Assembly: GCA_017477205.1 (NCBI GenBank)
Contig: JAFUXE010000023.1
Span: forward strand, 28,833-92,832
Length of the DNA: 64,000 nucleotides
Direction of reading: 5' to 3'
Origin: Alloprevotella sp.
Lineage (GTDB): Bacteria > Bacteroidota > Bacteroidia > Bacteroidales > Bacteroidaceae
The notes beneath the pieces were generated by a model. The model was not told the DNA's origin. It ran no database searches and worked only from the letters and a program-made list of their open reading frames with translations. How positions within the stretch are numbered: position 1 is the first letter of the stretch; each line of letters opens with the position of its first letter. The position numbers were made by a program, and so were the translations under genes. Below are positions 596 to 40,692 of this stretch, in pieces.

Positions 596-630
596 CAAAA
601 AGGCAGCGCTGTCTCGCGACTGCGCTGCCT
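596..630 (-). terminator. Intrinsic terminator of the first secreted-protein cassette
   Basis: On the minus strand AGGCAGCGC and GCGCTGCCT form a nine-base-pair stem at 601-630, followed by TTTTT. It lies downstream of the small gene at 1025-1198 and the conserved element at 631-775. A closely similar terminator is found in the inverted cassette at 40659-40692. Confidence 0.75.
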
Positions 631-775
631 CACGTGTCTAACTAGATCATAAACCGGGCGGGGAACACACCTCACGGCGAATCCGCCGCCCGAAGTTGGT
701 TCTTCATAACCAAAAAAATCCAACTATTTATTTAAAACATTATACTGAATGTCGCTTCACAGCGAGAGGTTTTCT
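631..775 (-). ncRNA. Conserved structured 3' element, copy 1
   Basis: Read on the minus strand this segment starts at CCTCTCGCTGTGAAGCG and runs through TTGGTTATGAAGAACCAA, which is a hairpin, and GGGCGGCGGATTCGCCG with CCCCGCCCGG, another foldable block, into the terminator. Nearly the same sequence follows the paralogous cassette at 40515-40657. Such nucleotide conservation without an open frame suggests a functional RNA or a recombination segment: a 3' UTR, a 3'-derived small RNA or a recombination tract. No separate promoter is obvious. The ncRNA label is inference. Confidence 0.45.
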
Positions 776-827
776 GTTATTGCATGTTTCGGAAGCTAAC
801 GGCGCCTTGAAGAGGCAGCCAGCTTCC

Positions 828-1015
828 AGCCCAGGGCATCGCCCTGGGTGATATGAGAAGCCATGTCCGCGCCCTGTAAGGGCAAAAGCATCTGGGCAAG
901 AGCTGTCATATCTTTTGTGTCGGTAAGGCTTCTGCCCTTTCAGGGCGCCGTTTGACGGCTACCTTAGACCCAGGGCGATGCCCTGGGCTAAAGGCGTTTT
1001 GCCCCTTCAGGGCGT
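828..1015. repeat. REPIN-like palindrome module 1
   Basis: Palindromes follow in quasi-symmetric order: CCCAGGGCATCGCCCTGGG (830-848), GCCCTGTAAGGGC (871-883), GCCCTTTCAGGGC (934-946), CCCAGGGCGATGCCCTGGG (969-987) and GCCCCTTCAGGGC (1001-1013). A related module lies at 56.3-56.5 kb. This organisation resembles REP/REPIN elements, which are moved by RAYT transposases; no such transposase is visible in the window. The module sits between the small gene and the conserved 3' element, a position empty in the paralogous cassette, so it may have inserted there. Confidence 0.7.
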
Positions 1016-1024
1016 TAGCATTCC

Positions 1025-1198
1025 TTACTTCATGTCTTCCCAGAGGCCACCGCCTACGCCGCGGCTCTGGCGGGTGTCAAACGCATCAGCATTTGTTCGA
1101 CCAGTTTTGTTAATGTCAACATTGGGAGATTGTGCCAACATCTGCTGAACGTTCAATGCCACTACTTCTGTGGCTGGAACAAAATATATCTTTTTCAT
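1025..1198 (-). CDS. Small peptide ending in GGGLWEDMK, downstream of large secreted protein
   Basis: A 57-residue frame starts MKKIYFVPATEVVALNVQQM, continues LAQSPNVDINKTGRTN and ends RGVGGGLWEDMK, stop TAA at 1025-1027. It follows the large secreted-protein gene by about 70 bases on the same strand. The inverted paralogous cassette encodes a 66-residue relative (40312-40512) with the same MKKxY..P start, glycine-rich end and GLWEDMK terminus. Two independent copies with conserved ends make it a convincing gene despite its size. It resembles a broad group of short Bacteroidales hypothetical proteins starting MKKxYxxP. A LAQS stretch near residue 21 could be a processing site. Function unknown; a secreted or modified peptide is only a guess. 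Confidence 0.7.
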   Translation of the reverse strand: MKKIYFVPATEVVALNVQQMLAQSPNVDINKTGRTNADAFDTRQSRGVGGGLWEDMK

Positions 1199-1215
1199 AA
1201 TTGTTTAATGATTCT

Positions 1216-1268
1216 TTTAATTGTCCCCCAAGCCTCCCCGGAGGGGGAAGGTTGGAGGGGACTGTTGT
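1216..1268. repeat. Short C/G palindromic repeat between the two cassette genes
   Basis: The gap holds CCTCCCCGGAGGGGG, a self-complementary block flanked by CCCCAAG and GGTTGGAGGGG. Related CCCTCCCAGCC and GGGAGGG palindromes occur at 48940-48960 and 56950-57080. It may form a hairpin between the two genes of the cassette. Confidence 0.5.
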
Positions 1269-1270
1269 TT

Positions 1271-4200
1271 TTATTTTACCAATACTTTTTTACCGTTGAT
1301 GATGTTTACGCCCTTCTGCGGCTGGCTGATGCGCTGGCCTGCGAGGTTGAAGATGGCGCCGAACTCTTCTGCGCTCACGTTCTGCGTCTCCGTTATACCT
1401 GTTGTCGGGTCAACAAACACGAAGGTGAAGGCGCGGGTTGCGTCACTTCCTGCGTCATCGATGACGCTTGCAGGGATATATGCCTTGTTCGCCTTGAACG
1501 TACCAGCGTTATTGTGCATAAAGGTGTTGCCTGCAAGGCCATAAATCGCGTCTGTATCGAAGTACGTGGGTGCAAGTGTGCCGACCAGTTTGTTTCCGGA
1601 CAATGTGGTTTCACTGTTTGCGGAGTTTATTGTAACCGTAGAGTTTGCTTTACCCTTCAACAGTACGCCTGTGCCGCCTTTGACAGCACTTGTAATCTGC
1701 TCAAATGTGATAACCTCACCTTCAATGCTGGTTATCTGCCAAGCACTGAAGTCTGCCGTTTCGTAATCAGAAAAATCCAGAGGCCCCTCGGAACAGAACG
1801 TTGCATAGCCAGAGGCATTGAGGGTTACATCCTCTGTTCGTGCATCAGCGAAGTGAAGAACAATCTTTGTGAATTGTGTGTTATTGCCATTTGTCACTTT
1901 GAGAGTATAAATGTTCCCTGGAGCCTGATAATCGGAGGCTATTATATAACTATTTGTTCCCGTTGCGCCAGTAGTTCCAGTGCTTACTGGAACATCTCCC
2001 ACGAATATATTTTGAGTTACTTTTCCAGAAGCCCCATCTCGTCCAGTGATATCAATTTGTGTTAAGAACTTTTCAAAAGCCTGAAATGTAAAGGTTGCGT
2101 CTTTCTTACCTAAAATTAGAGAGGTCTCCTCATTATAAACCCCGAACTTATACCCGTCACCAGACGTTCCACCTTCGAGTGTAATGGAATATGTCCCATT
2201 GCTATAAGTTTTTTTGGATTTTTCATAATCTGTAGGTAAATTCCATACCGTATTGTCCGTGAAATCCAACGTAGCGGTTGAAGTCGTAGTGCCTTTTTGT
2301 ACAGTTGTCTTGCCTTCAGGCGCACTAACCGTAACAGTTACTTCCTTATCTTCGCCTGCGGTATAGAGGTTGGCAGCATCAGCAGGAGCAGAGATTGTTA
2401 TGGTTGCAGTTCCTACAGCCACAGGAGTGATATAGCCATTGGCGTTGACTGTGACAACATCCGTATTGCTGCTTTCGTATGCTAAAGATCCAGCATATCC
2501 GGTTGACGTGCTGGCTTCTATGGCTGTCGCGGAAGCACCATAAGCTATATTGACATCGCCAGCCGTAATCACAACAGGTGCAGTAACGCTAATGTTGCGC
2601 TCAGCGGTAACAGCACGATAGTTTGTTGCGTCGCTGGGGGTAACAGTATATGTAATCTTTGCAGTACCACGTCCAGTGGTCGTGTATGCGCCTGTTGCGG
2701 CATTCGTGATTTCAATCACGCTTGCATCAGATGAAGTCCATGACTTTGTGCATTCTGCGGCATCGGTAGATGAGCCAGAGAATGTGCCCGTGGCACCCTT
2801 GGCCAACGTACCGGGATCTGTGATGGAAACGTCTGTCGCGATGGGGTCCTTCAGAGCCGTAAGAGTAAGCTTTGTTAGTTTTGGCGTTCCACTATTCTGT
2901 TGGAGTGTTATCTGACAGGGGAATGACGTTGGCACAATAGCCTGATTTGTCGTGGCTGGTATGGCATTGGTGGAAGTTCCATCTGCGTATGTAATCTTGT
3001 ATGTTAAACCATTTGTAAAAGTGGGCGTAATCGATAATGCCTTAGAGCCGTTCTGAATCCATTGGGTTGTCATGACACCACCAGAATTCTGGAACTGAAT
3101 TCCACTGTTCTTCATAATCCATGCGCCTGTAACATTTAGCGTCTTGGTTCCATCTGAATTAGATATTGTTCCTTTTCGAGCAACACCATTATTATAGCCA
3201 GTAACTTCATCCTCAAACTCTATCTTTGTCGCATCAAATTCGATATCGCTGCCATTAATATCAAAGACTGTTTCCTTAGTATAAGTTACGGAGGCAACAG
3301 GGCTTACGAGACCATCTGCATCAATAGCAATAGCCTTTACAGTTTTGGTCTCAGATACTTCTATTGCCGACGTATATTTGGAAGAAGTCTTTGTAGGCGT
3401 TGTACCATCAAGGGTATAGAAAATATCTGCTCCGTCAATCGCTGGAATCGAGATGCTCTTAGTTGTAAAGAAAGCAGAGGCTGTTGGTAGCGTCGGTGCG
3501 GCATATTTATATTCCACACTTACAGGGAATGTCGCTGTAACGGGTTTATATGTGGCCGCATCTGTTGGAGTCGCCGTTATAGAGACGTTCACGTTGCCAG
3601 AGCTCAAACCTTCAAACATTTCATCAGCCAATTCCAAATAAGCATCTTCTCCGCTACCCAAAGACCATGTTTTGCTGGAAACAGCCTCAGTATAACTTTC
3701 CGTCAAAGTGAACTCTCCCGTTTGTCCAACGTAAACGGTTGTAGGACTGATAGCCGTGATAGAACCAATCTCTGTGCGGTTGTCGGTACAAATGGCTGTG
3801 AATTTCTTCGTCACCTCTTCATAGTTTGTTGCATCTGCGGCAGCGGGTGTTGCTGTGATTGTAAACTCTTGCGAGCCAGCGGCTGTGGCGCAAAGATATC
3901 CATCTTTGTAGTAAATATCTCCAGATGTTGGCGTAACTGAGAATGATACATCTCCTGTGGCTCCAGTTGCCTTGGTGAAGTAATCGGAAGGATCAAACTC
4001 TACCCCATCATTAAATGGGATAGACACATCACTTATGTTAGAGAATGTTCCAATGGGTGATTTAGTGACAATGGGAGTATAGGTAAACTCAACCTTAATG
4101 GATTTAAGACGAATAACCCTGCCTGCAGTAGCAACCTCAATCGCTAAATCATGCGAAAATAATGCTGTCGCATTGGCTTGTGTAACTGTATATATCGTAT

Positions 4201-4582
4201 TTACATATGTACTGCTTGAGGGTAAAGTTCCGCTTTGAGCGGCTGTGACTTGGGTAGAACAGGCTGCAGATGTATAAACACTAAATTTGGTCGATGTGGG
4301 GTTCGTCCCAGATCCATATGTGGCAACATTTAATGTTATCTTAACGTCTCCTGTAATTGTTTTTCCTGTAAAAATGCCCGAGATAGCCGCAACACATGCT
4401 TTGTTGCTACTGGATTTATAATAGTCCGACTCGGTACTAAAATTGGTTCTTGACCATGTGTCTTGCCCAAAAGAATAGGTTTGCGAGAAGTTTTCTCCCC
4501 ACGCACTCATGCTTAGGGTACACAACAAGGCTACGAGCATACATGATCGTAGTCTCAAAGAATTAAGTAATTGTTTGTACAT
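1271..4582 (-). CDS. Large secreted multidomain Ig-like surface protein (copy 1)
   Basis: 1103 residues. A signal peptide begins MYKQLLNSLRLR and ends near SAWG, about residue 29. Then come a beta-sandwich region (about 30-170), Ig-like stretches, a chitobiase C-terminal-like repeat around FYTLDGTTPTKTSSKYTS, several Big_2-like repeats such as ITISAPADAANLYTAGEDK, and a second beta-sandwich. The C-terminal tail reads FNLAGQRISQPQKGVNIING, the type used for surface export and anchoring in Prevotella-like bacteria. Adhesion or glycan binding at the cell surface is inferred; no catalytic motif is seen. The first 28 codons are almost identical in DNA to those of the gene at 36077-40297, while the rest has diverged. 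Base composition is more AT-rich than neighbours. A short peptide gene follows; a long structured leader precedes it. Confidence 0.75.
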   Translation of the reverse strand: MYKQLLNSLRLRSCMLVALLCTLSMSAWGENFSQTYSFGQDTWSRTNFSTESDYYKSSSNKACVAAISGIFTGKTITGDVKITLNVATYGSGTNPTSTKFSVYTSAACSTQVTAAQSGTLPSSSTYVNTIYTVTQANATALFSHDLAIEVATAGRVIRLKSIKVEFTYTPIVTKSPIGTFSNISDVSIPFNDGVEFDPSDYFTKATGATGDVSFSVTPTSGDIYYKDGYLCATAAGSQEFTITATPAAADATNYEEVTKKFTAICTDNRTEIGSITAISPTTVYVGQTGEFTLTESYTEAVSSKTWSLGSGEDAYLELADEMFEGLSSGNVNVSITATPTDAATYKPVTATFPVSVEYKYAAPTLPTASAFFTTKSISIPAIDGADIFYTLDGTTPTKTSSKYTSAIEVSETKTVKAIAIDADGLVSPVASVTYTKETVFDINGSDIEFDATKIEFEDEVTGYNNGVARKGTISNSDGTKTLNVTGAWIMKNSGIQFQNSGGVMTTQWIQNGSKALSITPTFTNGLTYKITYADGTSTNAIPATTNQAIVPTSFPCQITLQQNSGTPKLTKLTLTALKDPIATDVSITDPGTLAKGATGTFSGSSTDAAECTKSWTSSDASVIEITNAATGAYTTTGRGTAKITYTVTPSDATNYRAVTAERNISVTAPVVITAGDVNIAYGASATAIEASTSTGYAGSLAYESSNTDVVTVNANGYITPVAVGTATITISAPADAANLYTAGEDKEVTVTVSAPEGKTTVQKGTTTSTATLDFTDNTVWNLPTDYEKSKKTYSNGTYSITLEGGTSGDGYKFGVYNEETSLILGKKDATFTFQAFEKFLTQIDITGRDGASGKVTQNIFVGDVPVSTGTTGATGTNSYIIASDYQAPGNIYTLKVTNGNNTQFTKIVLHFADARTEDVTLNASGYATFCSEGPLDFSDYETADFSAWQITSIEGEVITFEQITSAVKGGTGVLLKGKANSTVTINSANSETTLSGNKLVGTLAPTYFDTDAIYGLAGNTFMHNNAGTFKANKAYIPASVIDDAGSDATRAFTFVFVDPTTGITETQNVSAEEFGAIFNLAGQRISQPQKGVNIINGKKVLVK

Positions 4583-4669
4583 AATGTTTTGAAGTTATTG
4601 GTTTGAATTTTGGTCTATGAAAAAGAGACGAGGCTATGTATTGTCACAGCAGAGAGTGGAGAGTGAGGG

Positions 4670-4702
4670 ACGGCATCCAGGAGGCACCTCCGGGATGCCG
4701 TC
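4670..4702 (-). promoter_or_regulatory. Near-perfect hairpin in the leader of copy 1
   Basis: GACGGCATCC and GGATGCCGTC pair over ten bases, continue past one mismatch into GGAGG/CCTCC and close on a two-base loop. It lies about 90 bases before the start of the secreted-protein gene, inside its probable leader. No U tract follows on the minus strand, so it is not a simple terminator. It may affect translation or stability, or be a small palindromic repeat. Confidence 0.5.
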
Positions 4703-4838
4703 GGGGAATACCATGTGCCAGTACTGCGACTTCAGCAAAGCCACGGTGGTATTCAGAGATGCTATTTCAGTAGCGAGATCCATATCCTCTTGCGCGCGTG
4801 TGTATATATAATAATGTGTATGGGGCATACACACAAAG

Positions 4839-4996
4839 GAAGCGTGGTACGATAGCCACTCTTCTAACGGAGGTCGTGAGATTACCTTAGCATGCAGATG
4901 TGGATACAGTCCACGCTTACGCGCGAACCATTACACCTTCCTTGCATGCTACTGAAATTTCTCACGTTTCCGTTAGCAAGTAAAGCATAACGCTTC
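4839..4996 (-). ncRNA. Rod-like structured RNA, 6S-like architecture, candidate
   Basis: Paired blocks are visible in order: GAAGCGT 4839-4845 with ACGCTTC 4990-4996; CTAACGGA 4864-4871 with TCCGTTAG 4969-4976; CGTGAGA 4875-4881 with TCTCACG 4960-4966; AGCATGCA 4889-4896 with TGCATGCT 4943-4950; and an apical GTGGA/TCCAC hairpin. Unpaired stretches of 18 and 13 bases form a large central bubble, as in 6S RNA. A good promoter at 5040-5070 would start a minus-strand transcript near 5033. It could be a 6S-type RNA or the long 5' leader of the gene at 1271-4582. No clear U-tract terminator separates them. The pairing is seen; the identity is inferred. Confidence 0.5.
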
Positions 4997-5039
4997 TTTG
5001 TTGATATGTCCGAAAAGCTCACGGGGAGCCTTTCGTGGG

Positions 5040-5070
5040 CAAAAGTACAACAAAAACTCTATACGCCAAA
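5040..5070 (-). promoter_or_regulatory. Bacteroidetes-type promoter for the structured RNA
   Basis: On the minus strand TTTG (5067-5070) is followed after exactly 19 bases by TACTTTTG (5040-5047), an excellent match to the TTTG-N19-TAnnTTTG consensus. Transcription should begin near 5033, reading leftward through the rod-like RNA toward the secreted-protein gene. Confidence 0.75.
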
Positions 5071-5162
5071 CGGCGGGGAGGATATTTCTTGGAAACTTCC
5101 GGAATGCTCCCGTCCCCCCGCCGGATTTGGAAAGTAGAGATACCTAAATGTGCTGGATAAAG

Positions 5163-8730: not shown

Positions 8731-8908
8731 AATCTCTTCTCTTTTAACTTGGTCAACTCCTGTTGTGTCCGGATGCGGTTGCGAAGATACGGAAAACTCC
8801 TGACACCACCAAGCCGCATGTCCCCAAGTCCTTTGCCTTGAAAATGCAGGTGTTTCTGTTCTTGCCTGTTACAGAGGTGTTTACGTGATATGCGACAACC
8901 TCTTTTTG

Positions 8909-9039
8909 AGGTGTGCGCACACCTTGCTCTGAGGTAAGCGCAAAGCTCATGTTGAGGTAAGCGCAAAGCTTGAGTCAAGGTAAGCGCAAAGCTTGAGTCA
9001 AGGTAAGCGCACACCTCGGAAGGAGGTAAGCGCACACCT
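8909..9039. repeat. Array of 16-base palindromic units, exact 23-base period (array 1)
   Basis: Six units start at 8909, 8932, 8955, 8978, 9001 and 9024, each 16 bases, separated by 7-base spacers. The first, AGGTGTGCGCACACCT, is a perfect palindrome. The others combine half-sites AGGTGTGC, AGGTAAGC and AGCTTTGC around GCGC. A further degenerate unit may precede 8909. The array lies between the divergent MATE and rplU genes. A sister array is at 62105-62212. No cas genes are present and the repeats are too short for CRISPR. Possible roles are a protein-binding array or a mobile mini-repeat. Short ORFs over it are translations of the repeat. Confidence 0.9.
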
Positions 9040-9100
9040 TTTTGGGGGCTCTGCGGAAAGGCCGGAAAAAGGCAAAAAGACAAAAAATCAGGGGAAAAGC

Positions 9101-9131: not shown

Positions 9132-9137
9132 CGCCCG

Positions 9138-11864: not shown

Positions 11865-14855
11865 TTATCGCAGTACCTTGCGGCCGTTGACAATGGAGAC
11901 GCCGCGCGGGATGCGCTGGAGGCGGCGTCCCTGGAGGTCGTAGATAGTTGACGAGTGAGGAGTGACGAGCGGGGAGCTGATGCCGACGATGTCCTTGACG
12001 TGGGCTTCCTCACAGTTGATAACCTCGCCCGTCTCCGTGTTGAAGAGGAGCACGACGACGCTGAGCTGGTCCCAGTCCTGCACGAGGGTGTTGTCCGAAA
12101 GGTCGAAGATGTGAACGTACTCCTGCGGCTGGTCGTAGCGGATGGGCGCCGTGATGCTCTGGCTGAGGCCACGCTCGACGCCTGCTCCCGCAATGGGTAC
12201 GTGGTTGAAGGAATCGCGGAGGTATTCACCCTGCTGGATGATGGTCTGCAGGTCGGCATCGTTCTGGTAGGCGGTGGTGCCCTGGTAGCCGGCGTAGTAG
12301 TTGTGCTGGAACCAGTCGCTGGAGGTGCCTTTCAGTCCGTCGGCACGGAGCAGGAAGCCGAGGGCGTAGGGAGCCTCGTCGGCGTTGAAGCAGAAGTCGG
12401 CGTAAGCGGTAACGGCTACGGAGAGGCTGCTCTTGTCGTAGGTGGGCACCTCAAGGCGCACGCGGGCTTCCGTGAGCTTGGCGTGTTCTTCCTCAATGAC
12501 CTCGCCGAGGCCGAAGCCGCTGGAGCGGTTACCCATGTAGGGGTCTATCATGAAGGAGCGGTTGATGGTGCTGCTGGGATAGCCGGAGACGTTGGCGGAG
12601 AGATAGGGCGAGAACGCCTGTATCTCCATGGGGTCGTTGCGGTGGACGGCGGCGCAGACGAACTTGCCGGGATGGCGTTCCTCGGCGAGGCGCAGGCCGA
12701 GCGTGCCGCGCGGGCAGAAACCGCACCACGTGCCGGTGTATTCCTCGACATACACTTTGTGGAAGGGAGCCTCGGAGAGCGTGCGCAGGGAGCCGCTGGC
12801 TGTGTTGTGGGCAAGAACCTCGTTGTCCGAACCGTTCACCTGCGTAAGGGTGAGCGCGGCGGCGAAGTCGTTCACGACGGAGGGCAGCTGTATGGGGATG
12901 TTGAACGTGCGCTTGCTGCCGAAGGGCAGTGCGGGCGACACGCTGATGGCGGGAGTGGCATAGTCGGCGCCGTCAAGCTGGAGGCGGAAGCTGAGGCTCG
13001 TGATGTCCTGCTTTCCGTAGTTCTCGACAACGACGGGAATTTCCGCCTGCTGCCCGGCTACACCGAGGACTTTCCCGAAGTCCGCAACGGTGGCGGAGGT
13101 GCCGACGAACTCGTCGGAGACGTTGACGGGGCGGCGTGCGGCGTTGACAATCTCACCCGTCTCCGTGTTGAAGAGCAGGGCTACTACGCTGAGCTGGTAG
13201 AGATTCTGCGCCAGCGTGTTGAAGCCGAGTTCCATATCGTAGGGGTGGTTCTGGGCTTCACCCATGCGGATGGGAGCCGTGATGCTCCCGGCGATACCCT
13301 TGTCCACGCCTACGGCGGCGACGGCCACGTTGTCATAGACCATGTCCGTGATGGAGGCAGGCTGCGTAGTCCAGTAGAGGAGGTTCTGGTCGTTCTGGTC
13401 AAAGAATGTGGTGCCTTTCCAGGAGGGGTAGGAGTTGGCCTGATACCACTCCGACGTGCTGCCCTTCAGACCGTCGCAGAGCAGGACGTAGCCGAGGGCG
13501 TAAGGGGCGTCGTCGCGGTCGTAGTTGAACTTCACCTCCGTGGCGAAGCGGATGTGTCCGCTCTTGTCCATCTGGGGTTCGGAGAGTTCTACGGAGGCTT
13601 CGGCGACGGCCTTCTGGTCGGCGGCGATGTCCTTGTCGAGGGCAAAGCCGTTGCGCGGCATCTGCGAGCCGTAGTAGGGGTCGGCACGCAGCGAGCGGTT
13701 CACGAGGCCGGAGGGCGTGAGGCCGATGCGGTTGAACACTTTCTGGTATTCCTGGATAGCCATGACTTCCGTGCCGCTGTGGACGGAAATCCAGATGGCG
13801 TCGTCGGGGTGATGCTCCTGAAGGAGCTTGCGCCCTGTGATGCCGCGCGGGCAACCGCCGCTCCACGTGGCGGTGAACTCCTCATAGACGGTGCGGTGGG
13901 GTGCGGAGGACTCCAGCGTGATGAGCGTGCCATTGGCAACGGCAGCACTGCCGCCAATGGCGTTGGGCTGGCCGTTAACCTTCGTGACGGTGATGGTCTT
14001 GGGTTGGCGGCCATAGTTCGGGTCGGCAATGAGCTGCACGGGTGTCACCGTGCTGCAACCGTAGCCCATGAAGGGTTCGGAGAGCGTTACGTGGCGCGTG
14101 AATTCAATGGCGCCGTCAGTGGAGATGGTGTATTCGAAGTCGCGAATACCGTGTGTGCCGTAGTTCGTGAGCGTGAAGGGCACGCTCACGGAGTCGTTGG
14201 CCAGCGTGATGGCGTCGCCGAAGTTGACGGCGGAGACGGCATCAGTCTGGAAGTCACCGTCGATGAGCACCTGTATGGCCATGCGGCCGTAGCCGAGGCC
14301 CTGGAAACTCGTCCAGTTGGGGAAGTTGCGCGACGACTTCATATAAATGGCGCCTTCGAGGTCGTCCTCGTGCGTGGTGGTGAGCACGGGAAAGGCTTGC
14401 GGCGTCGTACCGATGTAGGTCTGCGTCATGCTGTAGCCGACATAGACGCCCGTGGTGCCCACCGTGAAAGGCTCGGGAAGGAGAATCTCCGTAGGCGTGG
14501 CCTCTTTCAAGGCTTCCTTCGGCACGTCAACGACGATGTCAGCCTCGTCCGTGTTGTCGGGAAGTCCCAGGCTGAGCCATACCTTGACGTCCTGTAGGGA
14601 GCTGACGCCCTGTACGGTGAAGCGCACGGCGCGAATCCTGTGGCCGGAGAGCAGGGCATTGCTGCGTCCCGTGTGGATGGCGCAGTCGTAGCGCTCTACC
14701 TCGCCGGAGCCGAGGCCCAGCAGTTCGTCTGTGTCAAGATAGTGTCCCCACCAGATTTCGTTGTCGGCGGGCGTCACTTGTGCGAACATGTCTCCCGGCA
14801 CCAGCCACGTGGCGCACAGCAGGGAGGCGGCAAAGAATAGTTTTTTCAGTGTCAT
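11865..14855 (-). CDS. Secreted Omp28-like protein with two thioredoxin-like modules
   Basis: 996 residues with a signal peptide (MTLKKLFFAASLLCATWLVP, cleaved near MFAQ). Two related modules each contain an Omp28/thioredoxin-like segment: EEFTATWSGGCPRGITG (about 325-341) and EEYTGTWCGFCPRGTLG (about 710-726), each followed by xxxVHxxxxMxIQxY and a loop with NRS. The second has an intact CxxC redox pair; in the first, the leading Cys is Ser/Gly and only one Cys remains. Ig-like strands link the modules. The tail [18 protein letters not shown] suggests type IX-like surface export. A surface or extracellular thiol-redox or adhesive function is inferred. Transcribed divergently from the CotH gene at 14993. 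Confidence 0.8.
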   Translation of the reverse strand: MTLKKLFFAASLLCATWLVPGDMFAQVTPADNEIWWGHYLDTDELLGLGSGEVERYDCAIHTGRSNALLSGHRIRAVRFTVQGVSSLQDVKVWLSLGLPDNTDEADIVVDVPKEALKEATPTEILLPEPFTVGTTGVYVGYSMTQTYIGTTPQAFPVLTTTHEDDLEGAIYMKSSRNFPNWTSFQGLGYGRMAIQVLIDGDFQTDAVSAVNFGDAITLANDSVSVPFTLTNYGTHGIRDFEYTISTDGAIEFTRHVTLSEPFMGYGCSTVTPVQLIADPNYGRQPKTITVTKVNGQPNAIGGSAAVANGTLITLESSAPHRTVYEEFTATWSGGCPRGITGRKLLQEHHPDDAIWISVHSGTEVMAIQEYQKVFNRIGLTPSGLVNRSLRADPYYGSQMPRNGFALDKDIAADQKAVAEASVELSEPQMDKSGHIRFATEVKFNYDRDDAPYALGYVLLCDGLKGSTSEWYQANSYPSWKGTTFFDQNDQNLLYWTTQPASITDMVYDNVAVAAVGVDKGIAGSITAPIRMGEAQNHPYDMELGFNTLAQNLYQLSVVALLFNTETGEIVNAARRPVNVSDEFVGTSATVADFGKVLGVAGQQAEIPVVVENYGKQDITSLSFRLQLDGADYATPAISVSPALPFGSKRTFNIPIQLPSVVNDFAAALTLTQVNGSDNEVLAHNTASGSLRTLSEAPFHKVYVEEYTGTWCGFCPRGTLGLRLAEERHPGKFVCAAVHRNDPMEIQAFSPYLSANVSGYPSSTINRSFMIDPYMGNRSSGFGLGEVIEEEHAKLTEARVRLEVPTYDKSSLSVAVTAYADFCFNADEAPYALGFLLRADGLKGTSSDWFQHNYYAGYQGTTAYQNDADLQTIIQQGEYLRDSFNHVPIAGAGVERGLSQSITAPIRYDQPQEYVHIFDLSDNTLVQDWDQLSVVVLLFNTETGEVINCEEAHVKDIVGISSPLVTPHSSTIYDLQGRRLQRIPRGVSIVNGRKVLR

Positions 14856-26359: not shown

Positions 26360-29158
26360 CTACTTCACGATTTTTTTGTTCCCGACAATATAAACGCCCT
26401 TGACCTGTCTGGAGTTCCGGAAACGCCGTCCTTGCAGGTCGAAGGACAACGAAGAGTTCGCCGCAGCCAGTGACGAGGTATTCCCGTATTGGCTTATGCC
26501 TTCCGTCACGACCTCTTCGAAGCGCCACGCGGCACCCTGCGGGCGTGCGGGCTGGTCGGCACCGCTGATGGTGGTGCCGCTGCTGACGATGCCGGGAAGC
26601 ACCGTGCCGTCCTGCATGACAGGATAGAAGTTGCGGCTTGACAGGCTGAGGGCAAAGTCATTGGTGGCCTCGTTGTATGTCACCGTTATGGTGTTGCGCG
26701 TCTTCGCCATGCGTACGGGCCAACCAATCTGCCCGCTTCCCTTTGTGCCGTTGCTGTAGATGAAGCGCTCCGACTTCACGTTTTGCAGACGCACGACCTG
26801 CGTGCCGTCGTTCTTGAGCTCCGTCGTGACAACCTTCCACAGTGCCAGTTCGCTGTCCTCGTCGTACGTCCAGCGCAGGTAAGTGTCCTCCTGGGTGTCG
26901 GCCAGGAAGAGGTTTTCGTAGCCCGCAACGCTGTTGCGGATGCGATAGGTCTTTCCTTCCTCAAGGATGAGCGAGGGCTTCACGACTACAGGCTCCGTGG
27001 TTCCTGCTGCTACCGTGCCCACAAAGGTCCACAGGCCGCCGTTTCCGGAGAGCGGTTCCGTCCAGAGGTTTGCGGCAAGCCCCTGTCCGGGCATGGAGGC
27101 GTTGACGTACCATCCGCTGAGCTTGTCGCTGCGCAGCGTGTAGTAATAGTAGTCGCCGTCCTGTCCGTAGCCGGCTTCGCCCAGCAGGAAGTTGTAGTTT
27201 TTCTTCGCGGCGTCATACTTCCAGCGTCCCGTGTTGCTCTGCGCCGTCGGCGTGGGGTTCAGCGAGCCCTCGGGCGCGGCTTTGCAGACCAGGGCGTAGT
27301 GGCCCGGTGCAGTGGGACTCTCCTCGAAAGTCCAGAACTGATAGTCGTAGTTGGAGTCGCCCTCCTGCGCCTGCGTGTTTGTCCAGATGACGTTCGCCGC
27401 AGCGCCTTTTCCGGAGTACGTGCTGACGAGGGGCGAGGATGCTGTGAGCAGTTCGATGCAGCGCCCCTGTCGGTCGGCGTCCGTGGCACGCGTCACGATG
27501 CGGTAGTACTCGCCGGCCTTCGGCATGACTTTCGGCGTTTCCGGCTCCGTGACGTTCAGGTCGTGGCGGCAATAGTTGAAGCCCAGGCGGTCCAGCAGGA
27601 GCGTGTCCGCCGTCACGCGGTTCACGAAGTCGTCGTAGTTCTTCGCGCTCTGCTGTGACCATCCGGCCTCGGCAATGGCGAAGAGGCGCGGCAGGGCGAG
27701 GTATTCCAGGTATGCCGTGTCCGCCACGTGTTCGCACCAGAAGGTGCCCTGCACGCCCGTGTAGTATTTCGTCAGCGACGTGTTTATGTCCGTCGGCACA
27801 GGCACGGTGTTGTAGGTCTTGCGCAGGTTGTCCGTACCGTCGCCCGCCGCGCTCGGCTCTCCCGGCAGCGTGCTCTGCTTGCGGTTGATGTAGTACGGTC
27901 CCCAGGGCGTATATATATTATTGAGTCCCAGCTGCGCAGCCTTCTTCGCGGCTGCGTCGGGTCCCGTCCAGCAATATACCGTCACGCCGCACTCCTTCAT
28001 GATGTCCGTGTCGGCGCCGCTGGCCGTGATGGCCTCGTTCCATACGCTCGTCTTCTTGCCCTTTGTCTTCAGGAAGTCGGACATCTCCTGGATGAAGTGG
28101 CTCTGCAGCTGGCGGTAGCTTGTCAGGCCCAGCGCCTTGTAGCTTGCCTGGCACTGGGCGTTGCTTTCCCACGCGCTCGTGGGGCATTCGTCGCCGCCGA
28201 TGTGTATCTGCTCATAGGGGAAGAGGTCGGAAAGTTCGTCCAGCACGTCCTTGCAGAACTGCACGGCCTGCGGGTTGCCCACGTTGAGCACGTCCGAGCT
28301 GATGCCGCCGCTGGTCCACACGCTGCGCGAGGCGTTCGGCGTGCAGCTGTACTCAGGGTACGCGCACAGCGCCGCAACGAAGTGCCCCGGCATGTCTATC
28401 TCCGGAATTATCTCCACGTGGCGTTCCTTCGCGTAAGCCACCACGTCGCGTATCTCGTCCTGCGTGTAGAAGTAGGGGCCGTACTGGCGGTTTGTCCAGT
28501 AGGGGCCGTACTTCATGTCCGTCACGTAGCAGTTGGGAGCTGTAGCGCCGATGGTCGTCAGCTTGGGGTATTTCTTTATCTCCACGCGCCATCCCTGGTC
28601 GTCCGTGAGGTGCCAGTGGAAGCGGTTGAGCTTGTAGCGCGCCATGAGGTCGATGAACTTCTTCACCTCCGTGGTGGAGAAGAAGTGGCGCGACACGTCG
28701 AGCATGAAGCCGCGATAGGTGAAGCGCGGCAGGTCGCGCAGCGTCACGTAGGGCAGTGTACCGTCGGGATTCAGTATCTTGCAGATGGTTTGGAATCCAT
28801 AGAAGAAGCCTGTCGCTGTGGAGGCTTTCAGGACGATGCCGTCAGCTTTCACTTCGAGGCGGTATTCCTCAGCACCGCATTCTGCCATGGGTTCCACCTT
28901 CAGCAAGGCGTCCTCGGCATCCGGGGTGACGGAGATGTTGCACGCAGCTTCTTCGCCGAAGTGCTGTGCGAAGCGTTCGGCTTCCACGCGGATGCTGTCC
29001 ACCATGCCGCCCAGTGAGATGCTGAAGCTTGCGGGAAGTGTCAGCGTACCCTTTGTCGGGCGCGTCATGGAATAGGGTTTCGGGGTGAGGTTCACAACGT
29101 CCTGTGCCGTCAGGAACAGCGGCAGCAGAGCGAGCAGGAGGAGACAGGTTTTCTTCAT
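26360..29158 (-). CDS. Secreted beta-N-acetylhexosaminidase, GH20
   Basis: 932 residues. Signal peptide MKKTCLLLLALLPLFLTAQ; GH20b domain about 20-145; catalytic barrel about 148-490 with FHWHLTDDQGW, IPEIDMPGH and HIGGDECPTSAW, in which Asp323 and Glu324 are the catalytic pair. It should release terminal GlcNAc or GalNAc from glycans by substrate-assisted catalysis. The later region holds beta-rich domains around 550-900, possibly carbohydrate binding. The tail FDLQGRRFRNSRQVKGVYIV suggests type IX-like export. It fits the NahK-like kinase and GH2 enzymes of the window in amino-sugar and galactoside use. Convergent with the hydrolase gene upstream. Confidence 0.93.
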   Translation of the reverse strand: MKKTCLLLLALLPLFLTAQDVVNLTPKPYSMTRPTKGTLTLPASFSISLGGMVDSIRVEAERFAQHFGEEAACNISVTPDAEDALLKVEPMAECGAEEYRLEVKADGIVLKASTATGFFYGFQTICKILNPDGTLPYVTLRDLPRFTYRGFMLDVSRHFFSTTEVKKFIDLMARYKLNRFHWHLTDDQGWRVEIKKYPKLTTIGATAPNCYVTDMKYGPYWTNRQYGPYFYTQDEIRDVVAYAKERHVEIIPEIDMPGHFVAALCAYPEYSCTPNASRSVWTSGGISSDVLNVGNPQAVQFCKDVLDELSDLFPYEQIHIGGDECPTSAWESNAQCQASYKALGLTSYRQLQSHFIQEMSDFLKTKGKKTSVWNEAITASGADTDIMKECGVTVYCWTGPDAAAKKAAQLGLNNIYTPWGPYYINRKQSTLPGEPSAAGDGTDNLRKTYNTVPVPTDINTSLTKYYTGVQGTFWCEHVADTAYLEYLALPRLFAIAEAGWSQQSAKNYDDFVNRVTADTLLLDRLGFNYCRHDLNVTEPETPKVMPKAGEYYRIVTRATDADRQGRCIELLTASSPLVSTYSGKGAAANVIWTNTQAQEGDSNYDYQFWTFEESPTAPGHYALVCKAAPEGSLNPTPTAQSNTGRWKYDAAKKNYNFLLGEAGYGQDGDYYYYTLRSDKLSGWYVNASMPGQGLAANLWTEPLSGNGGLWTFVGTVAAGTTEPVVVKPSLILEEGKTYRIRNSVAGYENLFLADTQEDTYLRWTYDEDSELALWKVVTTELKNDGTQVVRLQNVKSERFIYSNGTKGSGQIGWPVRMAKTRNTITVTYNEATNDFALSLSSRNFYPVMQDGTVLPGIVSSGTTISGADQPARPQGAAWRFEEVVTEGISQYGNTSSLAAANSSLSFDLQGRRFRNSRQVKGVYIVGNKKIVK

Positions 29159-35095: not shown

Positions 35096-35375
35096 TTCGT
35101 GAAATTCGTGACGTTCGTGGTTCAACAAATAGGAATCCATGAAATCTGTGGTTCCAAATGTAGTGTATGTAGTGGTTCCATAATCCATGAAATCTGTGGT
35201 TCCCAAATGTAGTGTCTGTAGTGGTTCCAAAATTCATGAAATCTGTGGTTCTCAAAGCTGTGTCTGTAGTGGTTCCATAATCTTGTGAAATCTGTGGTTC
35301 TCAAAGCTGTGTCTGTAGTGGTTCCATAATCCCTGAAATCTGTGGTTCCAAGAGCTGTGTCTGTAGTGGATCCTT
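35096..35375. repeat. 48-base direct repeats, left flank of cassette 2
   Basis: About five copies of a 48-base unit containing TGGTTCCATAATCCATGAAA, ATCTG and GCTGTGTCTGTAGTGG. Copies differ at a few positions. The same unit in opposite orientation lies at 40697-40830, so cassette 2 is bracketed by inverted arrays. Related fragments lie at 520-590. ORFs here are repeat translations. Confidence 0.85.
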
Positions 35376-35449
35376 TGCCACCACGGGTTTCCGTTTTCGC
35401 CCTTTCCGTGCCCGGCACAACCAAGGACGAAGAAAATCCGCGCACAACG

Positions 35450-35481
35450 TTTGCGCGTATTATTATAATATTGTACTTTTG
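35450..35481 (+). promoter_or_regulatory. Promoter of the second rod-like RNA
   Basis: TTTG (35450-35453), 20 bases, TACTTTTG (35474-35481). The -7 box is identical to that of the first rod RNA at 5040-5047. Expected transcription start near 35488. Confidence 0.75.
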
Positions 35482-35487
35482 CCCCCG

Positions 35488-35727: not shown

Positions 35728-35760
35728 TGTCCCAACGCCAAACATTCCAAACCGCTAACA

Positions 35761-36044
35761 TGAAACTGACAGAAGAACAGAAGCTTGCCGTCGAGGGCGA
35801 AATCCGTACCGCCCTTGACGCTTTGCCCTACCCGCTGGCGTACACGCTCACCAGCTACTACAAAGCAGTAGATTTCGAGGGCAAGGAGGTCAACACCATT
35901 TTCGACGTCGCGTTCGACATCGCACGTCTCGACGCCGCTCCCGACAACTGGACTGCCGACGTCGAAGATGTGATTGCCCCCATCGCCCTCAACTATGGCG
36001 GGCAGTACTTCTGGGAGGACGACACCCTCACCCTTTCCATCTGA
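35761..36044 (+). CDS. Small acidic protein of unknown function
   Basis: 94 residues starting MKLTEEQKLAVEGEIRTALD and ending YFWEDDTLTLSI. The in-frame extension upstream to 35634 overlaps the structured RNA and U tract and was rejected. The composition is acidic, with one predicted helix at the N-terminus and strands later; no signal peptide, membrane segment or catalytic motif. It lies 32 bases before the large secreted-protein gene, and may be co-transcribed with it. The first cassette has no equivalent gene. I do not recognise the family. Confidence 0.65.
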
Positions 36045-36076
36045 AAATAACTACAAACCAATAAATTCAAAACTTT

Positions 36077-39000
36077 ATGTACAAACAATTACTTAATTCT
36101 TTGCGGCTGCGACTATGTATGCTCGTAGCCTTGTTGTGTACCCTAAGCGTGAGTGCGTGGGGAAGGGATGTGACAATTGAAATAGGCACAAATCCTTCGA
36201 ATGCCAGTGGAACTTCTTATCTCACTAGTGTGCAGGAATTCACATTAGGAGGAGTCACGTTCAAAATGTGTAACTACAATCCATCATCAGGACAAATTAG
36301 AGGAAACCAAAGTACCTCCTCTTCAAACTTTTATCTATATAATACTACAGCTTTACCAGGGGCATTAAAAACCGTGGCTATAACTATCTCTACTGCGAAT
36401 AATACATTTGTGAACAGTAATACATATATCAATACGGACGGTAGCAGTATATCCACTCACTCCACTTCTGGAACAAATCCAACGGGAAGTGGTGAAACCC
36501 GTACATGGTCAAATCTTTCTGGGACTTTTTTTGAAATAAGCTTGGCTAGTGGCGGTACATCTGGTACTTGTAAAATATCAAAAATTGAAATAACCTATAC
36601 TATACCTGATTCAAATGCGTCTGAACCAAGTTTTACTCCAGAAGCTGGCCGTTACTTCACACCTCAAAGCGTAAGTCTTTCCTCTGAGGGAGCAAGACAT
36701 ATCTACTACACAAAGGACGGAACAACCCCGACGAGCAGTTCTTCGGAGTACACAGAAGCCATTTCAATTACCTCAACTACCACGATAAAGGCTATTGCGT
36801 ATGATAGTAGCAACAATGCAACAAGTGTTTCAGAGGCTAAGTACGAAATCGTTCCTACTATCACGTCCTATCCTTATTCCGAGACCTTTAATGGCGGAAT
36901 GGGGGATTTTTATACGGAAGGCACGTTGTGGACATATGAATCTAGTTATGGACCTATTGCTCGTGGTCAAGAGGATACAGGAGAGGTACTAATCTCACCC
37001 ATTTTCGTCCTTCCCAATAATGATGTAAGTGTCGCGTTCCATCATGCTGGAACAAGTATATCATCAACAGACAGCAAGCCAACGGTAAAGCTGTTGATTA
37101 AGGAATTTGGGGAAAGCAATTGGATGGAAATACCTATAAACACCTACGCCAACTCCGGCTTATCAAATACATTACTGAATATCACAGATATTTCAGAATA
37201 TAAAGGTAAAAAAGTTCAAATTGGCTTTGATTATATTAATACAAGGACATCTGGTACTCGGGCTTGGTATATTGGCGATTTCCAGATTGTCGAACTTGAA
37301 GACGCAGACCTTGCCTACTCCACATCAGAAGTTACAAAGACGTATGGTGATGCTTTATTCACGAATACCATCACAAATCCGAACAATCTTTCTGTTACGT
37401 ACAGCTCTAGCAATACGGACGTAGCTACCGTGAACGCTTCAACAGGAGCGGTGACGCTGAAGAAATCTGGAGAGACAACGATTACCGCAACCTATGATGG
37501 CAGTACACTTGGCTACAAGGCGGGCTCCGCTTCCTACACCCTCATCGTAAACAAGGGTACAGCAGGAATTGCATACGGAACAGCAACTTACAATATCCAA
37601 TGCGGCGACGCATTCTCAGCACAAACGCTGACGAATCCGAATAGCGTAACTGTTACCTACAGTTCATCCAACGAGGACGAGAATTTCATTTACCTTGACG
37701 AAAGTACGGGCGAAGTGCTTCTCGGCGATGTGGTCGGCACAACAACCATCACGGCTACCTTTGCAGGCAACGACCAATACAACCCCGCAACAGCAAGCTA
37801 TACTATCAACGTGGCACAAGGGCCTGCTCGCCTATCTTATGCCACATCTTCTTATACGGTAAGATACGATGATAGGGCTTCCTTCACAGCCCAGACATTG
37901 ACTAATCCCAATAAACTTCCTGTTAACTATAGCTCATCAAATGATGATGAAGAGTTTATCCTCCTTGATGAAAACGACGGAAGTTTGGTGTTGGGAGACA
38001 AATTGGGTTCAACGACTATTACCGCATCTTTTGCTGGTAATGCAAACTTTGCAGCAGGTAACGCATCTTATACCATTGAGGTCGTAAAATCTGAAGCTGG
38101 GTTGGCTTACGCAACGAACAGTCTTGCAGGCGATGCTCTTGAAACCATTGACGGGTTGACTTTGACTAATCCCAATAGTTTGTCCATTACATATAGTTCA
38201 AGTGACACGGATGTGGCAGAAGTAGATGAAACAGGACTGCTGACTCTCAAGAAAGGCGGTACAACAACCATTACGGCTTCTACCGCAGGAGATGATTTCC
38301 ATAATGCTGGAACGGCTTCGTACACTCTCACCGTAAATCGTTTAGATGCAAACCTTGCATTTGATGCAACTGAATTTGAAACAGACGTCAACGCGGCCTT
38401 TACCGCTCCGACTCTCACAAAGCCGGAAGGCCTGGCTGTTGAATACGCATCTTCCAACAGCAGCGTGGCATCAGTAAACGCAGAAACAGGTGCCGTGACG
38501 ATTGGCTCTGTAGCGGGAACAGCAACGATTACGGTTTCCTCTGCCCAGACAGACGTTTATAATGCCGATGAAGCTTCATATACAGTCTCTGTTTACGACC
38601 CCAACGTAAAGGGAACGAAGCGCTATCCGTTCACGGTGGCTGAGGCATTGGCTTTTATTGATGGATTGCCTGATGCTGGCAGTGATATTGTAACTACAGC
38701 GTCTACAAGTGATGATTATGTTACCCAAAAAGAGTATTACACAAGAGGCTTTGTTTCGCAAGTTGGTGATATAAGTAGTGGTTCAACATTATATGATGGC
38801 TCCTTATATTATTATATTTCCGATGACGGCACAGCATCAAATCATTTTGAGGTATGGGAAGGAAAATTCTTGAATAGTGCTGACTTTACAAATAGTAATA
38901 TTCTTAAAGAAGGCGATGAAGTAATAGTTTGCGGTAAACTGGAGAAATATGGTTCAACACCATATTATTATGACAATAGTTATCTCACCTATTTCAAGCG

Positions 39001-40297
39001 TAGATTGGCTGCCGACCTTGCTTTTGGCGGTGAAGCGAACAAGAGCGTAACCTTGACAAAGGATGACAAACTGACGGGTGTTGACTTTACAAAGGCTGAA
39101 GGCATAGACCTTGCTGACATCACGTTCACGGCTTCATACAGCGACGTTGCTTCTGTTTCCGGCACAGGCGTTATCACATTGGGCGGCAGCACTGGCACAT
39201 CTGTCATCACGGCTACGTTTGAGAAGAATGACGACTACAATGCCGGTAAAGCTGTTTGTACGATTACCGTTAATCCTGCTGGCGGCGTTGTTGTAGAGCC
39301 GAGCGTGGGTGGATACTATGAGAAGGTGACATCTACAAGTAACTTAGTTGACGGTGCTAAATATTTGATTGTGAATAAAACTGCCTCTAAGGCTCTTGGG
39401 GGACAAAGTGGTTCATACAGAGAATCTGTTTCTGTAAGTATTTTATCAAATACTATTTCTGATAAAGGTGATGCAACAATCATAACATTAGTGCAATCTG
39501 GAGATAATTGGAAATTGAAGTTTGATAATGGAAAATTCTATACAACTTCTGCATATAAATCTATGTCTGAAGGTGAGACAGGTACAGATGTTTCCATATC
39601 TTTCAACAATGATAATGTAAGAATTGTCTGTGGTTCCTACGGATATCTATGTTACAATAGTTCAGCTCCGCGTTTCTTAAATTATGAGAAAATACAAAGT
39701 GAAGTTCAGCTCTACAAATTTGTTCCAGCGGAATCTCCTGAGAACATAACCATTCAGGTTAGCGAGGCAGGTCTTGCTACGTACGCCAGCAACTTTGACT
39801 TGGATTATTCCGATGTTGAAGGGCTGGAGGCATACAAGGCTTCTGTCACGGATGATGCTATTTCCTTCACAAAGGTTAGCCAGGTTCCTGCTGGTGCTGG
39901 CGTGTTGCTCCGCTCCACCAACAACGGCACAAGTTTCAGCGTACCTGTGGCAACGGGCGATGTTGCCGCTTTGGAGAATAACGCCTTTATTCGCGGAACA
40001 GGTGCTGCGGTTGCTTCTGAAGATAACGGTCAGTATAACTACATCCTGAATATCGTTAACAACAAACTCGGTTTCTATGCCGCAAACGGACAGACTGTTG
40101 CCACGAATCGCGCTTACCTGCAAACAACAACACAGTCTGTTCGTGGTTTCTCCATCTTCTTTGACGAGAACACGGGCATAGCAGCACTCGAAGATAATAA
40201 GCTTAACGATAATGCTTACGACCTGCAAGGCCGCCGCGTTAGCGAGCCGAAGCACGGTCTCTACATCATCAACGGCAAAAAAACATACATTAAATAA
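36077..40297 (+). CDS. Large secreted multidomain Ig-like surface protein (copy 2)
   Basis: 1406 residues. The signal peptide MYKQLLNSLRLR...SAWG is nearly identical, also in DNA, to that of the protein at 1271-4582. Then: beta-sandwich (about 30-175), a chitobiase C-terminal-like repeat (IYYTKDGTTPTSSSSEYT), a MAM/choice-of-anchor-like domain (about 255-410), at least five Ig-like Big repeats (each ending SYTL or SYTI), an OB-fold-like stretch around YTRGFVSQVGDISS, another beta-sandwich, and the tail AYDLQGRRVSEPKHGLYIIN. Adhesion or matrix function at the cell surface is inferred; no enzyme motif. It is more AT-rich than the core genes and is followed after 14 bases by the small peptide gene. 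Confidence 0.78.
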   Translation: MYKQLLNSLRLRLCMLVALLCTLSVSAWGRDVTIEIGTNPSNASGTSYLTSVQEFTLGGVTFKMCNYNPSSGQIRGNQSTSSSNFYLYNTTALPGALKTVAITISTANNTFVNSNTYINTDGSSISTHSTSGTNPTGSGETRTWSNLSGTFFEISLASGGTSGTCKISKIEITYTIPDSNASEPSFTPEAGRYFTPQSVSLSSEGARHIYYTKDGTTPTSSSSEYTEAISITSTTTIKAIAYDSSNNATSVSEAKYEIVPTITSYPYSETFNGGMGDFYTEGTLWTYESSYGPIARGQEDTGEVLISPIFVLPNNDVSVAFHHAGTSISSTDSKPTVKLLIKEFGESNWMEIPINTYANSGLSNTLLNITDISEYKGKKVQIGFDYINTRTSGTRAWYIGDFQIVELEDADLAYSTSEVTKTYGDALFTNTITNPNNLSVTYSSSNTDVATVNASTGAVTLKKSGETTITATYDGSTLGYKAGSASYTLIVNKGTAGIAYGTATYNIQCGDAFSAQTLTNPNSVTVTYSSSNEDENFIYLDESTGEVLLGDVVGTTTITATFAGNDQYNPATASYTINVAQGPARLSYATSSYTVRYDDRASFTAQTLTNPNKLPVNYSSSNDDEEFILLDENDGSLVLGDKLGSTTITASFAGNANFAAGNASYTIEVVKSEAGLAYATNSLAGDALETIDGLTLTNPNSLSITYSSSDTDVAEVDETGLLTLKKGGTTTITASTAGDDFHNAGTASYTLTVNRLDANLAFDATEFETDVNAAFTAPTLTKPEGLAVEYASSNSSVASVNAETGAVTIGSVAGTATITVSSAQTDVYNADEASYTVSVYDPNVKGTKRYPFTVAEALAFIDGLPDAGSDIVTTASTSDDYVTQKEYYTRGFVSQVGDISSGSTLYDGSLYYYISDDGTASNHFEVWEGKFLNSADFTNSNILKEGDEVIVCGKLEKYGSTPYYYDNSYLTYFKRRLAADLAFGGEANKSVTLTKDDKLTGVDFTKAEGIDLADITFTASYSDVASVSGTGVITLGGSTGTSVITATFEKNDDYNAGKAVCTITVNPAGGVVVEPSVGGYYEKVTSTSNLVDGAKYLIVNKTASKALGGQSGSYRESVSVSILSNTISDKGDATIITLVQSGDNWKLKFDNGKFYTTSAYKSMSEGETGTDVSISFNNDNVRIVCGSYGYLCYNSSAPRFLNYEKIQSEVQLYKFVPAESPENITIQVSEAGLATYASNFDLDYSDVEGLEAYKASVTDDAISFTKVSQVPAGAGVLLRSTNNGTSFSVPVATGDVAALENNAFIRGTGAAVASEDNGQYNYILNIVNNKLGFYAANGQTVATNRAYLQTTTQSVRGFSIFFDENTGIAALEDNKLNDNAYDLQGRRVSEPKHGLYIINGKKTYIK

Positions 40298-40311
40298 AAA
40301 AGAATAGAACA

Positions 40312-40512
40312 ATGAAAAAGACATATTCATTTCCTCAGACAGATATCGTAAACATCGCGACTCAGGGCATCCTTGCACTTTCCAAAGATCTTAACTTTAA
40401 AAACGATGGAACAGGAACAGGAAGCACAAGTAACACGGGAGCCGTATCTGCGGGTATGACCCGCGGCCAGAACGGCGGCTTCGGCAGTGGCCTCTGGGAA
40501 GACATGAAATAA
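40312..40512 (+). CDS. Small peptide ending in GLWEDMK (copy 2)
   Basis: 66 residues starting MKKTYSFPQTDIVNIATQGI, with a Gly/Thr/Ser-rich middle and a GGFGSGLWEDMK end. It begins 14 bases after the large secreted-protein gene, as its 57-residue paralog does in the inverted cassette. Shared features are MKKxY..P at the start and GxGLWEDMK at the end; the middle is not conserved. No transmembrane segment is evident. A cofactor, chaperone-like partner or processed peptide of the large protein are possibilities, all untested. Confidence 0.72.
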   Translation: MKKTYSFPQTDIVNIATQGILALSKDLNFKNDGTGTGSTSNTGAVSAGMTRGQNGGFGSGLWEDMK

Positions 40513-40514
40513 CA

Positions 40515-40657
40515 GAAAACCTCTCGCTGTGAAGCGATATGATACATAATGTTTTAAAGAAATAGTTGGATTTTTTTGGTTATGAAGAACCAACTTCGGG
40601 CGGCGGATTCGCCGTGAGGTGTGCTCCCCGCCCGGTTTATGAAAAAGTTAGACACGA
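40515..40657 (+). ncRNA. Conserved structured 3' element, copy 2
   Basis: Starts at GAAAACCTCTCGCTGTGAAG, continues through TTGGTTATGAAGAACCAA and GGGCGGCGGATTCGCCG to CCCCGCCCGG. It is the near-identical counterpart of 631-775 on the other strand. Two hairpins are evident. Probably the 3' UTR or a 3'-derived RNA of the cassette. The short ORF starting at 40566 only translates this element and the following repeats. Confidence 0.45.
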
Positions 40658-40658
40658 G

Positions 40659-40692
40659 GGTGGCGCAGCCGTGAGGCAGCGCCGCCTTTTTT
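40659..40692 (+). terminator. Intrinsic terminator of cassette 2
   Basis: GGTGGCGC (40659-40666) pairs with GCGCCGCC (40679-40686), followed by TTTTTT. Equivalent to the terminator at 596-630 of cassette 1. Confidence 0.75.

Follow-up and report, generated by a model that had tools for sequence, protein, structure and literature searches.

Genes of the Neisseria gonorrhoeae pilE/pilS system have conserved ends and a variable middle and undergo gene conversion. Gene conversion between loci is also described for the bab outer-membrane paralogs of Helicobacter pylori, which, going by the part of that report used here, are the closest described case that we found (PMC4552749). The portion of a further report on which we draw describes an intergenic shufflon of ragA/susC homologues in Bacteroides fragilis, with inverted repeats lying over the start codons of surface genes (PMC5729914). 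Here we analyze two cassettes in a 64,000-nucleotide stretch of an Alloprevotella sp. contig (the window, meaning the whole stretch). Each consists of a large gene for a predicted exported surface protein, a small downstream gene, and a 3′ element with a terminator. Our best reading is that they encode modular, type IX-like surface proteins with middles exchanged between shared ends.

Like the bab genes, the cassettes have near-identical ends and a different middle in one genome, and a second case, at the 3′ end, occurs in a sister species (G044). The bab families, as presented in the portion cited, keep a conserved middle for each paralog, whereas the middles here are mosaics of modules found elsewhere, and the small gene goes along with them. 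Unlike pilE/pilS, both window copies are full genes; leaderless partial copies of the pilS kind were not seen in the window, and one leaderless cassette of 247 amino acids (aa) was seen in G044. The likeness to the shufflon lies in a Bacteroidales host and in inverted repeats over the start codons of surface-protein genes. However, the shufflon, in the sections cited, has an invertible promoter and nearby alternative gene pairs, while here 31 kb of other genes intervene and no recombinase family was found among the 38 window ORFs scanned. We recognised no description of this gene pair, or of such exchange in Prevotellaceae, among the open-licence papers that our searches listed. If middles are indeed exchanged, rumen and gut Prevotellaceae would gain a route to surface variation that is hidden from current annotation, since a credible Pfam or NCBIfam match was lacking for all 33 small proteins compared (there were weak single-member matches only). 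The shared blocks would then be ready markers for detecting exchange in long reads.

Shared ends and different middles

The window is part of one metagenome contig and represents one strain of the source species; comparisons were made with the genomes of relatives. Its PSP1-domain protein is 88% identical to that of an Alloprevotella metagenome-assembled genome from goat reticulum (L001, G001) and 74% identical to that of Alloprevotella rava. For LptD, the identities are 89% (G001), 81% (G044), 76% (G026), and 75% (A. rava, G002). The initial annotation of the window had described two units in opposite orientation, with almost identical signal-peptide DNA, diverged bodies, and a near-identical 3′ element with a terminator in both, and we located all of these. 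Cassette 1 is on the minus strand (597-4610) and cassette 2 on the plus strand (36049-40692). They diverge, so that the leaders face each other across 31.4 kb and the 3′ ends are outermost.

597..631, minus strand: cassette 1 terminator hairpin and T-run (compensating changes relative to cassette 2)
633..787, minus strand: cassette 1 shared 3′ element (92% identical to 40502-40656; folding z -3.6)
788..1024, minus strand: 237-nt repeat-like insert between the cassette 1 small gene and the 3′ element (sequence comparison)
1025..1198, minus strand: cassette 1 small gene, 57 aa (leave-out small-family model, E 6e-13)
1271..1903, minus strand: cassette 1 C-terminal module and GQRI..KGVNIINGKKVLVK tail (alignment)
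1271..4582, minus strand: cassette 1 large gene, 1103 aa, predicted exported surface protein (Fn3_assoc, CHB_HEX_C_1; weak Big)
4076..4492, minus strand: cassette 1 N-module, residues 31-169 (without the cassette 1 middle in 56 of 119 relatives)
4496..4610, minus strand: cassette 1 shared leader block, the end of the 5′ untranslated region plus signal-peptide codons (91% over 115 nt to 36049-36163; 92.7% over 110 nt)
36049..36163, plus strand: cassette 2 shared leader block (same inverted pair; blastn and stepwise identity)
36077..40297, plus strand: cassette 2 large gene, 1406 aa, predicted exported surface protein (CHB_HEX_C_1, Fn3_assoc, Big_2)
39665..40297, plus strand: cassette 2 C-terminal module and GRRV..HGLYIINGKKTYIK tail (alignment; structure model with mean pLDDT 82)
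40312..40512, plus strand: cassette 2 small gene, 66 aa (leave-out small-family model, E 2e-13)
40502..40656, plus strand: cassette 2 shared 3′ element, starting in the last codons of the small gene (folding z -3.0)
40656..40692, plus strand: cassette 2 terminator hairpin and T-run (compensating changes relative to cassette 1)

The leader block comprises 23-28 nt upstream of the start codon plus the signal peptide, so the inverted repeats overlap both start codons. Blastn aligns 110 nt of it at 92.7% (E 6e-41), and as an inverted pair it extends over 115 nt at 91%, with a spacing of 31,438 nt. The 87 nt of signal-peptide DNA contain 6 differences (3 synonymous codons, 3 changed codons). Counted in 20-nt steps from position -40, identity runs 8, 18, 20, 15, 20, 19, 10, and 1 of 20, and the resemblance in DNA ends where the signal peptide ends. 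Upstream of the block the DNA is unrelated between the cassettes; in cassette 2 the block starts about 5 nt past the stop codon of a 94-aa open reading frame (ORF). The ends are 92-93% identical, whereas outside the leader the best ungapped 110-nt match between the two large genes is 66/110. Below E 1e-3, the gene bodies have one further match, of 73 nt in the tail (74%), and no DNA alignment was found elsewhere in the bodies. At the protein level, body similarity is weak and local: 43% over 69 aa in the Fn3_assoc/CHB_HEX_C region and 30% over the last 198 aa.

At the other end, an inverted pair (633-787 and 40502-40656) is 92% identical over 155 nt. The two small proteins are 39-40% identical and diverged except in their last ~12 codons, which places the start of the conserved 3′ block within the small gene. 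Its last two 20-nt steps have 16 and 19 of 20 positions identical, and identity continues through the 155-nt element and the terminator. Both 3′ elements fold better than shuffled sequences, and the differences between the two terminator stems are paired and compensating, so that pairing is kept. The 237-nt insert of cassette 1 has imperfect inverted ends, is flanked by an imperfect 11-nt direct repeat (ACATGAAGTAA / ACATGCAATAA), and resembles a small transposed repeat. An Rfam scan of the window at gathering thresholds gave no family. The idea of an integron cassette, which came from the folded 3′ element, was dropped because no integrase family was found in the 38 window ORFs scanned and the leader edge lies inside a gene. 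In G001, a diverged 3′ element (72% over 86 nt) lies behind that genome's cassette. G001 also has a partial copy of the element (C96:1049-1125, L082; 77% over 81 nt), with no recognised small gene upstream in the stretch seen.

These comparisons suggest that homologous recombination between copies probably replaced the middles, that is, the body and most of the small gene, with the ends kept or re-copied. Recombination would enter in the leader block and leave in the small gene's last codons or in the 3′ element, and body, tail, and most of the small gene would move together. The cause may be gene conversion or double crossover in the shared ends, and the gain would be a changing surface. Gene conversion of the ends alone would be expected to give the same pattern. 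Alternatively, the two cassettes arose by duplication of a whole one, with selection driving rapid divergence of the bodies and purifying selection, acting on translation, export, or RNA stability, conserving the ends. Leader and terminator are functional parts, and the compensating changes in the terminator stem agree with such constraint. However, about 40 nt at the signal-peptide end are enough for identity to drop from 19-20 of 20 to 1 of 20, and synonymous-codon differences occur at only 3 of 87 leader nucleotides; we regard this history as unlikely. The shared blocks are 7-9% different, which makes an assembly misjoin at the repeats unlikely. Three contigs carry the cassette 2 small protein, and one carries the cassette 1 protein.

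Modules and cassettes in other genomes

Cassette 1 has 143 relatives at 1e-10, and our counts use the 120 listed, itself included, which leaves 119 relatives. These relatives come from metagenome proteins and not from the genus genomes. The candidates scored were those with the most words in common with the first 500 residues of cassette 1, so the search should favour proteins having both the N-module and the middle. Yet just one relative (P0082) has both; of these two parts, 56 carry the N-module only, 30 the middle only, and 32 neither. Alignments of at least 80 residues stop at residues 160-169 in 44 cases among the listed relatives. P0005 is 74% identical across residues 168-1103 and unrelated N-terminally, with a different leader and N-module, while P0034, P0042, P0046, and P0047 are 60-67% identical across about residues 6-182 and different beyond. 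That P0005 retains so much of the body together with an entirely different leader means that constraint alone does not explain 93% identity of the leader DNA, and it counts against duplication with divergence as well.

Leaders were compared as well. A leader could be recognised in 69 of 121 proteins, which form 200 pairs with a leader identity of 60% or more; in 68 of these 200, the 140 residues after the leader are not similar. Leaders are less than 40% identical in 201 of 337 pairs with similar N-modules. Many of the pairs are drawn from one group of close relatives and are not independent. Leaders like the window's (MKQKLLNSLRLR..) precede other N-modules in P0090, P0069, and P0029. P0010 had no match at 1e-40 in 301 family genomes, in a search that scored two candidates for each genome listed and included no positive control.

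A second pair, alike in DNA at the 3′ end, also supports exchange. The sister species G044 has two cassettes about 3.2 kb apart, with different small genes and with large genes sharing only 73 nt at 81%. Nevertheless, a 104-nt 3′ block, from the D-M-K codons of the small gene through the stop codon and terminator, is 97% identical between them. This block has two matches in its own assembly and none in G001, G026, or G002; compared with the window block, its position is the same and its sequence different. A 3′ block that is alike within each of two sister species and different between them is a further point against duplication with divergence. One of the G044 cassettes is leaderless and consists of a 247-aa C-terminal piece and a small gene (L127:3919-4662). 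This remnant (G044:C86, L127:3717-6236) lies behind an ATPase gene that by eye resembles the AAA_14 gene of the window at 41817-43028.

Five cassettes of genome G014 have different N-terminal parts and resemble one another (71-82% DNA identity) over some 110-240 codons at the C-terminal end and over the small gene, in whole or for the most part. Four of the five also have 47-93 nt of 3′ flank in common, and the members of one pair match from end to end (77%). In A. rava, three cassettes with different N-terminal parts are 77-84% identical in the C-terminal half, the small gene, and the 3′ flank (32 nt or more). We also compared identity within and between genomes for 51 cassettes from 9 sources, using 2000 label shuffles. 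Mean identities were 0.286 within and 0.235 between genomes for leaders, 0.521 and 0.403 for tails, and 0.356 and 0.275 for small proteins; none of the 2000 shuffles reached the difference in any of the three. An excess within genomes is also expected from duplication, so it is the sharp edges that carry the argument.

Taken together, the separate modules, the 68 leader pairs, and the G044 pair support the exchange of bodies that the initial annotation had inferred from the two units. Its suggestion to look for further copies had a mixed outcome. Exact pieces of the window leader and 3′ element had no match in genome_contigs (27-nt core) or viral_contigs (26 and 40 nt), and only short matches occur in the genus (leader in 4 of 58 genomes, 3′ block in 3 of 58), while the architecture itself is common among relatives. 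A wider cassette-exchange system in Prevotellaceae, with the leader and a genome-specific 3′ block as homology arms and with the modular exported protein and the specific part of its small partner swapped as a unit, is a possibility that we raise tentatively.

Several results weigh against exchange. There are two copies only in the window, from one strain, and exchange itself was not observed. A leader search of 5.8 billion proteins gave cassette 1 itself and nothing else, and of 58 genus genomes just one matches the cassette 1 body at 1e-15; on these grounds, donors inside the genus were not found. Sharing of the leader alone at the DNA level is rare elsewhere, with two short cases besides the window pair (40 nt in G014, 34 nt in G059), and the sole other leader-sharing DNA pair, in G014, is alike along its whole length. 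The G014 and A. rava sets, which are alike over long stretches, could be duplications followed by divergence, as the rival history would have it. In the first 300 body residues, too, identity is higher within than between genomes (0.119 and 0.102), a difference reached by 15 of 2000 shuffles. Finally, a G059 pair is 79% identical in body and small gene up to the stop codon and not past it, so a shared 3′ flank is not universal.

Putative export tail and small gene family

A signal-like leader and Fn3_assoc/CHB_HEX_C domains are present in both large proteins, whereas Big_2 scores above cut-off in cassette 2 and below it in cassette 1. Cassette 2 protein has matches at 1e-15 in 27 of 58 genus genomes, mostly over the C-terminal part. 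A C-terminal module, of varying strength, is common to most of 51 large proteins compared, and no credible Pfam match to it was found in 30 members. The precomputed annotation places PF26918 on many cassette 1 relatives, over this module or another part of the protein. The profile of the module matches residues 573-682 of 4kca_A, the end of a solved arabinanase chain (E 3e-10), and 4kca_A was absent among the matches listed in a fold search with the structure model.

The large proteins resemble type A C-terminal domain (CTD) substrates of the type IX secretion system (T9SS), as far as the cited portion describes them (TIGR04183/PF18962; PMC10202324), in being large exported-type proteins with a C-terminal tail. 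SprA is above cut-off in 12 of 13 relatives, which places a T9SS translocon in the host lineage; it was not found in G001, a 1.6-Mb assembly. They differ from those substrates in that a small partner gene follows and in that none of 10 large proteins tested exceeds the 23-bit cut-off of TIGR04183 (cassette 2 had no match, and cassette 1 scored 11 bits, off the tail). Their sequences lead us to infer that the short tail may direct the large proteins to export by a type IX system. The tail pattern is found in five window genes, namely, the two cassettes and those at 11865-14855, 26360-29158, and 58203-62093, and a small-family gene follows the two cassettes only.

The two window small proteins have no Pfam or NCBIfam match over cut-off. 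They were recognised by a leave-out model of the small family, built without the window proteins, P0003, P0004, and L083. The family is multi-copy: a model of 5 proteins matches 50 of 58 genus genomes (E 0.1), and a model of 33 proteins has matches in all 10 Prevotellaceae genomes examined. The usual upstream neighbour is a secreted-type protein ending like GRRV..KGxYIxNGKKxxxK. We found 83 small-gene places in Prevotellaceae genomes and placed 70 of them in context; at 49 of the 70, a same-strand ORF with the tail pattern ends at most 600 nt upstream. When the pattern is widened and the distance limited to 130 nt, the tail is present in 51 of 52 units (50 of the places and the two window cassettes). 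Unpaired members occur, for example in the genomes of H. oralis and H. enoeca. In the latter, the members in L226, L227, and L229 start MxxKQLExWAYxKP and have no tail-bearing gene upstream. For comparison, 80 loci retrieved for another gene contain 1010 ORFs, of which 27 have the tail pattern, some by chance; a small gene is next after 2 of these 27 versus 1 of the 983 other ORFs. Thus, most tail proteins come without a small gene, and most small genes examined lie behind a tail protein. This gene order leads us to guess that the small protein probably acts as partner to the large protein, and it makes the small gene a candidate for that role with a set of type IX-like exported proteins.

Genomic position of the cassettes

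In the two closest relatives, the stretches seen next to LptD and its HD-domain neighbour (3.3 and 10 kb) contain other genes and lack a cassette. After the metallophosphatase, a tail-bearing gene is close by in 1 of 8 relatives (G026), with no recognised small gene. In G058, the nucleotidyltransferase and the metallophosphatase, which are the neighbours of cassette 1, lie close together with one gene between them, so the left junction needs no inversion. This bears on the initial annotation's further suggestion that the two units, as inverted repeats, could let the 31-kb segment flip like a switch, which found no support. In favour of a switch, the leader blocks form an inverted pair that extends over both start codons, and start-codon-overlapping inverted repeats of outer-membrane genes in B. 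fragilis work so, according to the part of that report cited (PMC5729914). However, housekeeping genes lie in between, the repeats are alike to 91-93% only, the neighbours of cassette 1 are together in G058 too, and no recombinase, transposase, integrase, or relaxase family was found among 38 window ORFs scanned against Pfam, although a recombinase could act from outside the window. We consider such a switch highly improbable.

The absence of a cassette beside LptD in the stretches seen from the two closest relatives would also fit acquisition, in which the cassettes came from other bacteria or moved whole, with their ends part of the unit and different units arriving. The guanine-plus-cytosine (GC) content of the cassette genes (0.45 in cassette 1, 0.44 in cassette 2) is below the 0.61-0.63 of the three other tail genes of the window, and the cassette 1 relatives are in metagenomes, which points the same way. 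Nevertheless, the same Pfam scan lacks transposase, integrase, and relaxase families, no terminal repeats were seen on the shared blocks, the inner edges fall within coding sequence, and one plasmid record only matches cassette 2, weakly. We consider acquisition of whole units quite unlikely, and exchange of middles between shared ends remains our preferred reading.

Repeats of 48-49 nt (GGAACCACTACAGACACAG...) occur at 519-596, 35134-35373, and 40698-40817, within the window solely beside the two cassettes (5 matches), and those flanking cassette 2 are inverted relative to each other. A 16-mer of these repeats had no match in any of 249 fetched loci. After cassette 2, at 40907-43028, come a Kinase-PolyVal protein (PF18762) and then an AAA_14/DUF4143 ATPase, with GC lower than in most of the window. 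Two arrays of 23-nt repeats, at 8874-9041 and 62093-62237, are mutually inverted and 53 kb apart.

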